Assembly (NCBI GenBank): GCA_002162075.1
Contig: CP021423.1
Span: 124,001-188,000, forward strand
DNA length: 64,000 bases
Direction: 5' to 3'
From: Armatimonadetes bacterium Uphvl-Ar1
Lineage (GTDB): Bacteria > Armatimonadota > Fimbriimonadia > Fimbriimonadales > Fimbriimonadaceae
The notes beneath the pieces were generated by a model that worked only from the letters and a program-made list of their open reading frames with translations, did not search any database and was not told where the DNA came from. A program made the position numbers and the translations under genes. This document shows positions 609 through 4,237 of this stretch, in pieces (the first letter of the stretch is position 1; every line of letters begins with the position of its first letter).

Positions 609-1265
609 TTAGAACCTTACTCCGATCATGTACGCGGGGTTCTTGCCGTTTATCAAGAAGAGTCCCGATGTGTATTGATCCCAGGAGTAGGTGACGAACG
701 GATGGGTTTGGTGGCCTTCGTTTTGAAAGCCGAATGTCCATCGATCGGGAGTTGTGTATTTGACGCCCAACAATCCGTGGGCGTGGTTTTCGTTAGATCG
801 GAAACCAATTCCGGTGTAGATGTTGAGTCTTGCCTCTCCGAACTGCCAATTTTTCTCGCCGGTCAGGCTGTATCCGGGGTTTCCGGTGCCGATGCCTTGG
901 ACACCAGCGGAAGCATTGATCCCGGGAAAGTTGGTTGCTTCGGGGAGGAGGTTGACGCTTGCCAGCCATCGGAAGGCGTTTTGCTCATAGAGGTGGGCGA
1001 CGCCGAGCGAGATGCGCGGGTCACGCCGGTACCAGATAAACGTTTCGGCTTCGGTGATGGTGGTCGGCGCGATGACTGTGTTGATCATCCACGTTGTTTG
1101 TTCTGCCGAACCGGCAGAATATCCTCCCGCGACTCAGAGAGGGCAGAGGGCTTGTCCGGTGCCTTGTTCCTGAGTTTTGGGTTTGATTTCTGGTTCAGTT
1201 TGGGCTTGGGCGGGGAGCCCGAAGGCTCCCAGCGCGAGCACCATGAGGATGCTCTTGGTTGTCAT
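609..1265 (-). CDS. Secreted barrel-like protein interrupted by an in-frame TGA
   Basis: Two open stretches lie in the same frame. Codons from ATG 1265 encode a signal peptide (K-S-I-L-M-V-L-A-L-G-A-F-G, cleavage near AQA) and a short linker, reaching a TGA at 1136-1134. The same frame continues to 609 with 174 codons of alternating polar/aromatic sequence ending in Phe (I-G-V-R-F), as in outer-membrane beta-barrels. Without the TGA the product would be a normal secreted protein of about 218 residues. The TGA follows C-P-L, giving a C-x-x-stop pattern. Alternatives are a nonsense mutation, a base-call error, selenocysteine recoding, or separate translation of the second part from ATG 1088. 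The start overlaps the metallothionein-like stop (ATGA), so the genes are probably co-transcribed. Function unknown. Confidence 0.5.
1101..1119 (-). other. Perfect hairpin just downstream of the in-frame TGA
   Basis: On the minus strand TTCTGCCG and CGGCAGAA form an uninterrupted 8-bp stem closing a GTT loop. The loop begins 22 nt after the TGA at 1134-1136. There is no T-run, so it is not an intrinsic terminator. The spacing and the G at the first loop position resemble bacterial SECIS elements, but the role is unproven. Confidence 0.5.
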
Positions 1266-1378
1266 TTGCAGGTGCAGTTCCCTTCTTCGTCGGCGCACTT
1301 GCAGCATGCGCAAGGGTTGCATTGACAGTCGGGGCCGCAGGTGCAGCAAGCGCAACAGGTTTGTGTGTTTTCGTTCAT
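1262..1378 (-). CDS. Metallothionein-like Cys-rich peptide (38 aa)
   Basis: Reading the minus strand from ATG 1378 gives a 38-residue peptide with 13 cysteines arranged as CC, CxC and CxxC clusters (T-C-C-A-C-C-T-C-G-P-D-C-Q-C, then P-C-A-C-C-K-C) and ending T-C-K before TGA at 1262-1264. There is no signal peptide, so it should be cytoplasmic. Such density of Cys pairs is known from metallothioneins that bind Cu(I), Zn or Cd; the particular metal cannot be told. The stop overlaps the ATG of the next gene (ATGA), and the preceding gene encodes a secreted protein sharing the motif C-x-C-G-P-[AD]-C-Q-C, so the three probably form one metal-response operon. Confidence 0.75.
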   Translation of the reverse strand: MNENTQTCCACCTCGPDCQCNPCACCKCADEEGNCTCK

Positions 1379-1438
1379 TTGTTCCTAATCGTGGTCATGG
1401 CTTCGGTTGGATTTGAAGCGGATTGACTTGGGTTTTGA

Positions 1439-1798
1439 TTAGGAAGTTGGAGGGCCGCGAGGCGAGTGGCTGCGGTCGAGAACTTGATGAGTGGTTAAGT
1501 CGGTTAGTGGGGGGTGGGGATCAAGTTGTGGGGAGGAGGCTTGGGTGAGGTTGGGGGATTGTTCGGTGGGGAGAGTGCCTTCAGCGGTGGGAAGGGTGAC
1601 TTTTGTGTCTGCGGAGGGTGATTTTTCGGTCGTGCAGATGCAGGACGGGGCTTGATCTTCGTGGGGGCACTGGCAGGCCGGGCCGCAGCAACAGGAGGAT
1701 GAGGGTTGAGGGGGCTGGGCAATGGTGGGGGCAACGATTGTAAGGATCGCGAGGGTGGCGGCGAATTTTTTTGCCAGCTGGGCGAGGGGGTTGTTCAC
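1439..1798 (-). CDS. Secreted Cys-rich metal-binding protein candidate
   Basis: This encodes 119 residues from a GTG start. Residues 1-28 form a signal peptide (FAATLAILTIVAPTIAQ). Residues about 35-56 hold a cysteine cluster (SCCCGPACQC then SCIC) with His and acidic residues between the two halves. The rest is low-complexity Pro/Ser/Thr-rich. The C-[CT]-C-G-P-[AD]-C-Q-C motif recurs in the metallothionein-like peptide 60 nt downstream, which supports a common metal ligand role, here outside the cytoplasm. No named family is recognised. A TATACT hexamer lies 13 nt upstream of the start. Confidence 0.6.
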   Translation of the reverse strand: MNNPLAQLAKKFAATLAILTIVAPTIAQPPQPSSSCCCGPACQCPHEDQAPSCICTTEKSPSADTKVTLPTAEGTLPTEQSPNLTQASSPQLDPHPPLTDLTTHQVLDRSHSPRGPPTS

Positions 1799-1909: not shown

Positions 1910-4237
1910 TTACTGACGTTTGCGGAAGCGGGAGCCGCCTTCGCCTTCGCCGTCTCGATCACGGCCGCCGCCATCGCGTCGGGGGCCTCGGTCTCGGTCG
2001 CCGTAGCTACCTCGTCCGCCGTCTCGACCACCGTCTCTGCTGCCGCGTCCGCCTCGATCTCTTCCGCCGCCGTCGCGGTCTCGGCTGAATGCCGGTCGTT
2101 CGCTGACGGGTGGGTTGGGATCGTTGAGTCGTTCGTTATCGGGGTTGAGGCCGATTGCGGAGAGGTTGATGCGGCCCATGCCATCCACTTCGTGGACTCG
2201 GACGTTGATCACATCGCCTTCGCTGAGGACGTCATCAGGTCGTCCGATTTTGGCCTTGGTGAGTTGGTCGGTTGGCACCATTCCGTCTTTGCCGTTGGGC
2301 ATGGAGACGAGGGCACCTCGGCCCATGAGCCGGGTGACGGTTCCGGTGAATTCAAATCCGACTTCGATTTCGGCGGTGAGGCCCTTGATCAACGCAACAG
2401 CCTTTGCGGCTTTTTCACCAGTTGAAGAAGCAATGAGCACCCGACCATCCTTTTGGACGTCGATTTCGCAGCCTGATTCTTCGGTGATCCGGCGGATATT
2501 GGCTCCACCAGGGCCGATGAGGAGGCCGATTTTCTCGGTGTCAATTTGGAGGGTTTGGATGCGCGGTGCGGTTCCACTGAGCTCGGCTCTCGGCTTGGCA
2601 ATTTCCTCTTCCATGATGTCGAGGATTTTGTAGCGGGCATCTTTGGCTTGGGTGAGCGCGTCGATGAGGACTTGTTCGGGGATCCCTTCGAGTTTGGTGT
2701 CGAGTTGGAGGGCAGTGATGCCTTCTCGGGTTCCGGCGACTTTGAAGTCCATATCTCCGGTGTGGTCTTCGAGGCCTTGGATATCGGTGAGGATGGAGAA
2801 GTTCTTACCATCGCTCATGAGTCCCATCGCGATTCCGGCGACGGGGGCCTTGATCTTGACACCGGCGTCCATGAGGGCGAGAGTTGAACCGCAGACGGAG
2901 GCCATGGAGGACGATCCGTTACTTTCGAGGACTTCGCTGATCAGGTGGACGGTGTAGGGGAAATCGGGGTCATCCATGGGGACGACGGCTTCAATTGCTC
3001 GTTCGGCGAGGGCACCGTGTCCGACTTCTCGGCGACCGGGGCCACGGAGGGGTCGGGCTTCACCGACCGAGTAGGGCGGGAAGTTGTAGAAGTGCATGAA
3101 GCGCTTGGGTTCTTGTTCTTCATCGAGTTGGTCGAGGATATCGGCGTATTGCGCATCCTTGGGCATCCCGAGGGTGAGAACGGTCATGACTTGGGTTTGA
3201 CCGCGGGTGAAGAGTCCGGAACCGTGGACGCGGGGTAGAAGACCAGCGACGGCTTCGATGGGTCGAAGTTCGTCGAGCTTTCGTCCATCCGGTCGTTTGC
3301 CGTCTTTGATGACGGTGGCGCGGAGAACTTCCTTGATGGCTTTGTCGATGTATCCACCGAGGCTGGCGAGGAATTCGGCGTCATCTTCTTTGCCGACTTT
3401 GTATTTTTCCTTGAGTTCCTTTTTGAGGGTGGACTCAGCGTCTTCGCGGACAGTTTTGTCTTTGTGGAAGAGGGCGGCGGTGATGGCCTTGCCTTCTTTC
3501 TTCATGAGTTCTTCGAGGAACTTTTTGTCGGTCGGTTTTGATTCGACTACACGCTTTTCCTTGCCGGCGATTTTTGCGAAGGCTTCGAATTCCTTGCAGA
3601 TGAGTTGGATGTTTTCGTGGGCGAAGAGGAGGGCTTTGACCATGACTTCTTCGCTGACTTCTTTGGCACCGGATTCGACCATTGAGATGGCGCCTTTGTG
3701 TCCGGCGACGATGAGGTCGAGGGTGCTGACCTTCATTTGCTCGTAGGTTGGGAAGACGATGAATTCACCTTCGATGAGTCCGATTCGGACGCATCCGATG
3801 GGGCCGTTAAATGGTACGTCGGATACGGCGAGAGCGGCTCCGGCGGCATTGACGGCGAGGACATCGCTCGGCTGAGTGGCATCGATGCTGAAGGGCATGG
3901 CGATGACTTGGATTTCGTTGGTGCAGCCTTTGGGGAAGAGTGGACGCATGGGTCTATCCATGAGTCGCGCAATGAGGGTTGCTTTGGTTGAGGGTCTTCC
4001 ACCGCGCTTGATGACACCGCCGGGGATTTTCCCGATGGCGTATTTGCGTTCTTCAAAGTCACAGACGAGGGGGAGGAAGTCAATTCCTTCTCGTGCGGAT
4101 TGGGACATTGTGGCGGTTCCGAGAATGACGGATTCGTTGACGCCGAGGAGAACTGAGCCGCCGGCTTGTTTGGCGACGCGACCTGATTCGAGGTGGAAGG
4201 TGTGCCCTCCGACCTCGAAAGTGTGAGTGTGAATCAT
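1910..4237 (-). CDS. pnp: Polyribonucleotide nucleotidyltransferase (PNPase)
   Basis: PNPase degrades RNA 3'-5' by phosphorolysis, as a trimer and often with RNase E in a degradosome. The 775-residue product has the full architecture: a first RNase PH domain (about 8-145), the helical linker, a second RNase PH domain (about 325-460), a KH domain with the GPGGANIRRI motif near 571 and an S1 domain (about 630-697). Beyond S1 there is an extra tail of about 64 residues made of Arg-Gly-Asp repeats (GGRGSRDGGRDGGRG), which most PNPases lack and which may add RNA contacts. The start ATG 4237 has GAGG about 9 nt upstream. It follows rpsO in the same transcript, the classic rpsO-pnp order, and ends at a strong terminator. 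Confidence 0.97.
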   Translation of the reverse strand: MIHTHTFEVGGHTFHLESGRVAKQAGGSVLLGVNESVILGTATMSQSAREGIDFLPLVCDFEERKYAIGKIPGGVIKRGGRPSTKATLIARLMDRPMRPLFPKGCTNEIQVIAMPFSIDATQPSDVLAVNAAGAALAVSDVPFNGPIGCVRIGLIEGEFIVFPTYEQMKVSTLDLIVAGHKGAISMVESGAKEVSEEVMVKALLFAHENIQLICKEFEAFAKIAGKEKRVVESKPTDKKFLEELMKKEGKAITAALFHKDKTVREDAESTLKKELKEKYKVGKEDDAEFLASLGGYIDKAIKEVLRATVIKDGKRPDGRKLDELRPIEAVAGLLPRVHGSGLFTRGQTQVMTVLTLGMPKDAQYADILDQLDEEQEPKRFMHFYNFPPYSVGEARPLRGPGRREVGHGALAERAIEAVVPMDDPDFPYTVHLISEVLESNGSSSMASVCGSTLALMDAGVKIKAPVAGIAMGLMSDGKNFSILTDIQGLEDHTGDMDFKVAGTREGITALQLDTKLEGIPEQVLIDALTQAKDARYKILDIMEEEIAKPRAELSGTAPRIQTLQIDTEKIGLLIGPGGANIRRITEESGCEIDVQKDGRVLIASSTGEKAAKAVALIKGLTAEIEVGFEFTGTVTRLMGRGALVSMPNGKDGMVPTDQLTKAKIGRPDDVLSEGDVINVRVHEVDGMGRINLSAIGLNPDNERLNDPNPPVSERPAFSRDRDGGGRDRGGRGSRDGGRDGGRGSYGDRDRGPRRDGGGRDRDGEGEGGSRFRKRQ

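Follow-up and report, generated by a model that had tools for sequence, protein, structure and literature searches.

A candidate outer-membrane selenoprotein barrel behind a putative arrest leader and a Cys-rich peptide in Armatimonadota

Organization of the locus

The DNA analysed here, referred to as the window, is a stretch of 64,000 nucleotides from Armatimonadetes bacterium Uphvl-Ar1. Near the start of the window, the minus strand carries, in this order, the PNPase gene (1910-4237), a hairpin at 1857-1885, and three closely packed genes, here called A, B and C. The features of this region are collected in Table 1. The hairpin and its T-run are probably the PNPase terminator, and PNPase and rpsO are the window's own operon neighbours. 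The TGA stop of gene B overlaps the ATG of gene C in the sequence ATGA (1262-1265), and an equivalent A/B/C trio is present in another genome of the set, G005. Genes A, B and C are most likely one three-gene operon.

The initial annotation of this region had described a 38-residue peptide with 13 Cys that overlaps the next gene, and an exported Cys-rich protein directly upstream of it. We confirmed both, as genes B and A, respectively. That annotation overlooked the in-frame TGA that is read through in the overlapped gene, i.e., gene C, whose product is probably the main effector of the operon: a selenoprotein with a predicted barrel.

Table 1. Coordinates of the genes and features of the A/B/C locus, in window numbering.
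Feature	Position	Strand	Basis
Gene A, exported Cys-rich putative leader	1439-1798	minus	ORF, GTG start, 119 aa, 7 Cys
Gene B, metallothionein-like peptide MNENTQTCCACCTCGPDCQCNPCACCKCADEEGNCTCK	1262-1378	minus	ORF, 38 aa, 13 Cys; conserved in G006; counterpart in G005
Gene C, candidate selenoprotein	609-1265	minus	218 aa with one UGA read through; signal peptide, CPLU, predicted 12-strand barrel
RGPP codons, predicted arrest site, two codons before the gene A stop	1448-1459	minus	Sequence
5' arm UUCCUAAUC, over the last codons and the stop of gene A	1437-1445	minus	9-bp helix with the gene B Shine-Dalgarno
3' arm GAUUAGGAA, holding the gene B Shine-Dalgarno	1382-1390	minus	9-bp helix with the gene A tail
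CPLU motif	1134-1145	minus	Putative UGA (Sec) codon at 1134-1136; TGA kept in homologues, Cys or Sec in the same place
SECIS-like hairpin, 8-bp stem, GUU loop	1101-1119	minus	Loop starts 22 nt past the UGA
Predicted 12-stranded outer-membrane beta-barrel, gene C residues 57-218	612-1097	minus	AlphaFold; Z 17 to KdgM porin
Hairpin and T-run between PNPase and gene A, probable terminator	1857-1885	minus	Stem reported on the plus strand; T-run from the minus-strand sequence

Gene C and its in-frame UGA

Plain ORF calling splits gene C into a 43-aa signal-peptide fragment, which runs to the TGA, and a separate 159-aa ORF that starts from an internal ATG. The context of the in-frame TGA is ...GTGQALCPL-TGA-VAGGYSAGSAEQ... 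Comparison of the 159-aa part with relatives yielded homologues of 40-86% identity, with a stop-to-stop length of ~174-176 aa in most of them; these near-equal lengths pointed to a conserved upstream stop. When the codon is read through, all close homologues begin with a signal peptide, after which comes [C/U]-P-x-[C/U]-x-[A/G]-G, and the variants of this motif, namely CPLU, UPLU, UPIU and CPLC, represent the exchange of Cys and Sec. In 291 genomes of the phylum, the stops listed inside strong matches to the gene C family number one or two per gene and are TGA in every case; TAA and TAG were not found there. Across the whole frame, with the TGA read through, dN/dS is 0.19.

The genome of Uphvl-Ar1 encodes SelA (430 bits), SelB (352 bits), SelD (348 bits) and tRNA-Sec (73.9 bits); the presence of SelA and SelD was tested in this genome only. 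A tRNA-Sec of at least 65 bits was found in 34 of the 36 checked genomes that carry the TGA form of gene C, and the two without it, G149 and G161, are 88% and 77% complete. Conversely, no tRNA-Sec above 50.1 bits was found in the eight genomes whose best copy is TGA-less (G010, G158, G129, G130, G137, G138, G140 and G157), and no SelB above the cut-off was found in G010, the one TGA-less genome checked for SelB.

The hairpin downstream of the UGA has the loop GUU, or AGUUC with the closing pair open, and this loop begins 21-22 nt after the TGA. In 28 Sec forms, 87% of the stem cells are paired, with compensatory changes; at one position GC, CG, AU, UA, GU and UG are all found. The corresponding value is 34% in four Cys forms, which lack the hairpin, and 23-64% in sliding controls. 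Judged by this sequence evidence for Sec insertion, gene C is almost certainly a selenoprotein, with Sec at its UGA. A premature stop or a sequencing error was rejected as the source of the TGA, which is position-specific. Genome-wide recoding of TGA was also rejected, as this codon terminates other genes here, e.g., gene B.

Two further observations concern selenoproteins elsewhere in the same genome. The gene for SelD (L136; C1:2772333-2773256) carries one in-frame TGA, and SelD is thus probably itself a selenoprotein. The genome also encodes a further barrel selenoprotein family, only distantly related to that of gene C, with the motif UxGUPGEG, two UGA codons and a SECIS-like hairpin, on the plus strand at ~980-1575 of L133 (C1 ~2832200-2832775); this family is found in many relatives as well. 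Its hairpin lies at the same distance as that of gene C and is 98% paired in six members, with different codons.

To describe the fold of gene C, we used an AlphaFold model based on 22 homologues. The model shows a 12-stranded barrel, with a pLDDT of ~90 or more over most of residues 57-218. The N-terminal segment that includes CPLU was modelled at low confidence. The best structural matches are all 12-strand outer-membrane barrels, i.e., KdgM (Z 17.0), NanC, FapF and EstA, and the body of gene C is accordingly predicted by the model to be a barrel of this kind. The likeness to KdgM/NanC-type porins lies in the predicted fold (Z 15-17, about 2 A); the identity of these porins to gene C is 6-10%, with 8-9% in the comparison made for sequence homology, and they have no CPxU; a common fold does not show a common function. 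Pfam and NCBIfam scans assigned gene C to no family, and the sole match in a Pfam scan of 10 family members was to PagL, with an E of 0.02, in one of the 10.

Two His motifs in the barrel, HxH (161/163) and GHxxH (185/188), are kept or lost together among 22 family members. HxH and His185 are kept in 17 of them, four of which have Asn at 188, and both motifs are absent in the other five. This paired pattern in the sequences would fit a metal or catalytic site formed by both motifs. A paralogue of gene C with CPVC, without a UGA and without both His motifs, is present in G000 and G006 (L134, 2157-2738, in minus-strand numbering; C1:1972466-1973017, minus strand, in the Uphvl-Ar1 genome).

The gene A leader and the gene B peptide

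Gene A encodes a signal peptide, a CCCGPACQC...CIC cluster and the C-terminal sequence SPRGPPTS. All seven Cys are kept in G006, with a dN/dS of 0.36. Pfam and NCBIfam gave no family for gene A, and neither it nor five counterparts in other genomes matched DUF2946 (PF11162) at E values up to 1. RAPP and RGPP are proven arrest motifs; when the ribosome stalls on them, the first Pro occupies the P site and the following one the A site (PMC10951233). Arrest by both is robust, and they are over-represented close to the C-terminal ends of small secretory proteins, some of which are encoded upstream of genes for metal homeostasis (PMC12992588).

Small same-strand ORFs with a C-terminal R[AG]PP were found upstream of gene C at 17 of 41 loci, against ~0.35 expected, i.e., an excess of about 50-fold over a background of 0.008 per site taken from the window and unrelated loci. 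The antisense strand gave a single case, which is part of an oppositely oriented neighbouring gene. The leaders are highly divergent outside their C-terminal end and Cys-rich middle, and carry 6-13 Cys. This recurrence in the sequences shows a family of R[AG]PP leaders. A leader is seen in fewer than half of the scanned gene C loci, and the B peptide is missing from most, which indicates that gene C can act without them. Leaders are also retained in the Cys-only genomes G010 and G158, and thus the signal would not be selenium itself.

The tail of gene A is complementary to the Shine-Dalgarno of gene B. The segment 5'-UUCCUAAUC starts two bases past the RGPP codons, spans the gene A stop and pairs perfectly, over 9 bp, with GAUUAGGAA. 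The local fold at the A/B junction has a z of -3.5 and is beaten by none of 200 shuffles. At other loci the sequences differ and the pairing persists, for instance as UUCUCCUGGG/CCUAGGAGAA, UCCAAUAG/CUAUUGGA, UUCCUUGA/UCAAGGAA and CUCCUGUG/CACAGGAG. Over 13 non-redundant loci, the mean energy of a tail with its own Shine-Dalgarno is -12.4 kcal/mol, versus -8.2 for mismatched loci, and the summed own-partner energy was reached by 0 of 100,000 partner permutations, which control for generic CCUCC/GGAGG complementarity. These comparisons show that the pairing is specific to each locus. At loci that have no gene B (L036, L097, L104 and L107), the helix masks the Shine-Dalgarno of gene C itself; in three of 15 loci (G005, G010 and G169), it is weak or absent. 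Because gene A combines a C-terminal RGPP with a helix that masks the downstream Shine-Dalgarno, we read it as an arrest leader, and very probably one that acts on genes B and C.

Gene B stands out in the window for its Cys content, which is 34%, with 18.5% for the runner-up among 792 ORFs of at least 25 aa. The peptide has CC and CxC patterns and contains neither His nor aromatic residues. Homologues exist in related genomes, and gene B is not a chance ORF: all 13 of its Cys are retained in G006, the nearest relative (dN/dS 0.14), as are the seven Cys of gene A, and the counterpart in G005 has 47 aa and 15 Cys. In a search of 60 relatives, a high-confidence match was obtained in G006 only; further matches, with an E of 0.0025 and weaker, were rejected as low-complexity. 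The profile search for metallothionein families that had been suggested for this peptide gave no match in Pfam or NCBIfam. In the PDB, its top sequence match was to the Ec-1 metallothionein of wheat, with an E of 0.64, which is not significant; low-complexity filters weaken tests of this kind. Like SmtA/BmtA and Ec-1, gene B is short and very Cys-rich, with CxC and CxxC spacing; it differs from them in that there is no significant sequence match and in that exported forms exist, the B peptides of several other genera being exported, unlike the cytosolic ones of the window clade. From its sequence, a metallothionein-like, metal-binding role of gene B is plausible.

A and B had also been said to share C-x-C-G-P-[AD]-C-Q-C, and on this basis metal binding had been suggested on both sides of the membrane. 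The motif is indeed present in both, but is limited to the G000/G006 clade, for which two-sided metal binding is no more than a loose fit. With its RGPP end and the masking helix, gene A suits the part of a regulatory arrest leader better than that of a functional metal binder. A related arrangement was observed in G009 (L043:1-3181), where an 18-Cys stretch, a cytosolic Cys-rich peptide, lies directly 5' of a selenoprotein of the UxGUPGEG family. The association with Cys-rich peptides thus extends beyond the CPLU family.

Proposed mechanism, alternatives and distribution

We infer a mechanism in which gene A, as an exported nascent chain, would sense a change in its own export or Cys cluster, probably caused by a soft metal such as Cu(I), and the ribosome would respond by stalling at RGPP. 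The stalled ribosome would cover the bases just past RGPP, i.e., the 5' arm, so that the helix is opened and the Shine-Dalgarno of gene B is freed. Gene B, a putative cytosolic metallothionein-like chelator, would then be translated, followed by gene C via stop-start coupling at ATGA, with the SECIS hairpin directing selenocysteine at the UGA. Gene C would be exported, probably to form a 12-stranded barrel in the outer membrane; its periplasmic N-terminus would carry CPLU, and most relatives also have the His site (HxH plus GHxxH). The barrel would probably bind this same metal, or a thiol species, or process it by redox chemistry. If gene A behaves like CutF, metal on the chain under export would lengthen the stall and so turn on B and C. 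We consider this overall scheme likely, i.e., that a metal- or export-sensing arrest leader opens gene B and then the Sec barrel. Its parts differ in strength. That the operon responds to a soft metal is reasonably probable; copper is the leading candidate, at somewhat less than even odds. Whether gene C captures metal or acts in redox at the outer membrane is evenly balanced. The combined proposal, in which a nascent-chain metal sensor controls both B and an outer-membrane C whose periplasmic Cys-Sec pair and His site capture or reduce a soft metal, falls just short of that.

The neighbours of gene C at other loci bear on its role. An exported protein in which a YHS-like Cys motif is fused to a ResA/TlpA-like thioredoxin adjoins gene C at L118:3106-3756, L120:4541-5191, L122:2806-3504 and L125:6649-7308 (the YHS and thioredoxin domains were scanned in the L120 and L125 copies only), and would be a likely partner of gene C where its gene adjoins. 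A CusA/CzcA (RND) pump lies upstream of gene C in L130, and an HMA protein adjoins it in L125. No gene C cluster is strictly tied to copper genes, and a search of the literature on copper in Fimbriimonas returned nothing of use.

A close parallel is CutF, the copper-responsive exported leader of Rhodobacter capsulatus cutFOG, for which freeing of a Shine-Dalgarno by a stalled ribosome has been proposed (PMC9973294). Both are small exported proteins with a Cys motif and a C-terminal Pro motif, and in both cases a stem-loop hides the Shine-Dalgarno of the metal-related gene that follows (PMC9973294). The downstream genes here encode a metallothionein-like peptide and a selenoprotein barrel, however, rather than a multicopper oxidase; gene A has the RGPP motif and no DUF2946 match, and its metal response is a proposal. 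CruR/DUF2946 is likewise copper-responsive, and is an exported, Cys-containing uORF that ends in RAPP, as gene A ends near RGPP; it acts by Rho termination across a 162-nt spacer, and copper turns its operon off (PMC9426467). In contrast, the 60-nt spacer and the masked Shine-Dalgarno found here point to translational activation, and PF11162 is not matched. With ApdA/ApdP and other RAPP/RGPP arrest peptides, gene A shares the C-terminal motif and its nature as a small exported protein encoded 5' of a regulated gene (PMC10951233, PMC12992588), but it is Cys-rich and the genes regulated here lie outside the protein-localisation machinery. As in SecM-secA, a ribosome stalled at R[AG]PP would free a downstream Shine-Dalgarno.

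Alternatively, gene A could be an ordinary secreted metal binder and gene B a metallothionein, so that metal is bound on both sides of the membrane, with RGPP and the pairing being incidental. Both proteins are Cys-rich and conserved with all Cys kept, CxCGPxCQC is common to them, and B counterparts are often exported in other genera. We nevertheless regard this reading as improbable, since leaders that otherwise diverge have R[AG]PP at their very C-terminal end time and again, ~50-fold above background, each leader tail shows specific complementarity to the Shine-Dalgarno that follows it, and CruR and CutF provide precedent for such proteins as regulatory leaders.

Gene A might also be an arrest leader whose signal is not metal but protein export or stress at the outer membrane, in the manner of SecM or ApdA, with B and C answering redox or envelope stress. 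RAPP leaders were originally found upstream of sec/yidC genes, gene C is a predicted outer-membrane protein, and a thioredoxin-like neighbour occurs in four loci. The Cys-rich nature of the leaders (6-13 Cys), unlike SecM or ApdA as described, the Cys-rich B peptides that accompany gene C in many loci and the RND metal pump of L130 make this reading unlikely, though less so than the preceding one. Lastly, gene C could be broken, such that its product is limited to the 159-aa barrel started at the internal ATG, or is lacking altogether. The plain ORF call, which stops at the TGA and restarts at an ATG, would fit; yet the TGA, the CPxU context and the hairpin are kept in dozens of genomes and several families, never as TAA or TAG, the presence of tRNA-Sec tracks the TGA form, and dN/dS is 0.19 over the whole frame. 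A broken gene is thus extremely improbable, and we retain the arrest leader and the selenoprotein barrel as the preferred reading.

In a pattern scan with a tighter alignment, whose reach is close relatives only, gene C was found at 20 loci, nearly all in Armatimonadetes, Fimbriimonad or Chthonomonas MAGs. The named carriers are all MAGs, from Fimbriimonadaceae or other Armatimonadota, except for the closed genome CP021424.1, whose copy is of the Cys form. A 2026 inventory lists 119 prokaryotic selenoprotein families, with an MtrB/PioB-type barrel and a TonB receptor as its outer-membrane entries (PMC13188914); the gene C family is absent from that inventory, from Pfam and from NCBIfam 20. The GSU2204 MtrB/PioB barrel (NF041027) and the FCYXU TonB receptor (NF049945) resemble gene C in having Sec in an outer-membrane beta-barrel protein, but are separate families (PMC13188914), gene C having 12 predicted strands and CPxU directly after the signal peptide. 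In the literature searched, we found no paper on Armatimonadota selenoproteins of the gene C kind, no arrest peptide that regulates a selenoprotein, and no use of selenium at the outer membrane for metal handling beyond TonB receptors and electron conduits. That is, a selenoprotein, an arrest leader and a metallothionein-like peptide are each of a known kind; the family is new, and our literature search turned up no example of the combination.

Two related selenoprotein barrel families are thereby added to the 119-family list, which has neither; both are common in Armatimonadota and are cut at UGA by plain ORF calling. The arrest-peptide idea now reaches a phylum and a group of genes for which it has apparently not been described before, and the pairing of a leader tail with its own Shine-Dalgarno provides an RNA signature that can be searched for elsewhere. 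The question of whether Cys-cluster RAPP leaders read periplasmic metal directly is also made testable.

Two minor observations concern the sequences themselves. The record JADZEW010000026.1 (L117), titled Methanoregulaceae archaeon, bears a Fimbriimonadaceae-type locus, and this MAG is probably mislabelled. At positions 31-378 of the window, on the plus strand and convergent with the operon, lies the coding sequence for the C-terminal portion of a secreted protein that has a PEP-CTERM-like end (VPEPFTMGALGLMALAARRKKKNA).
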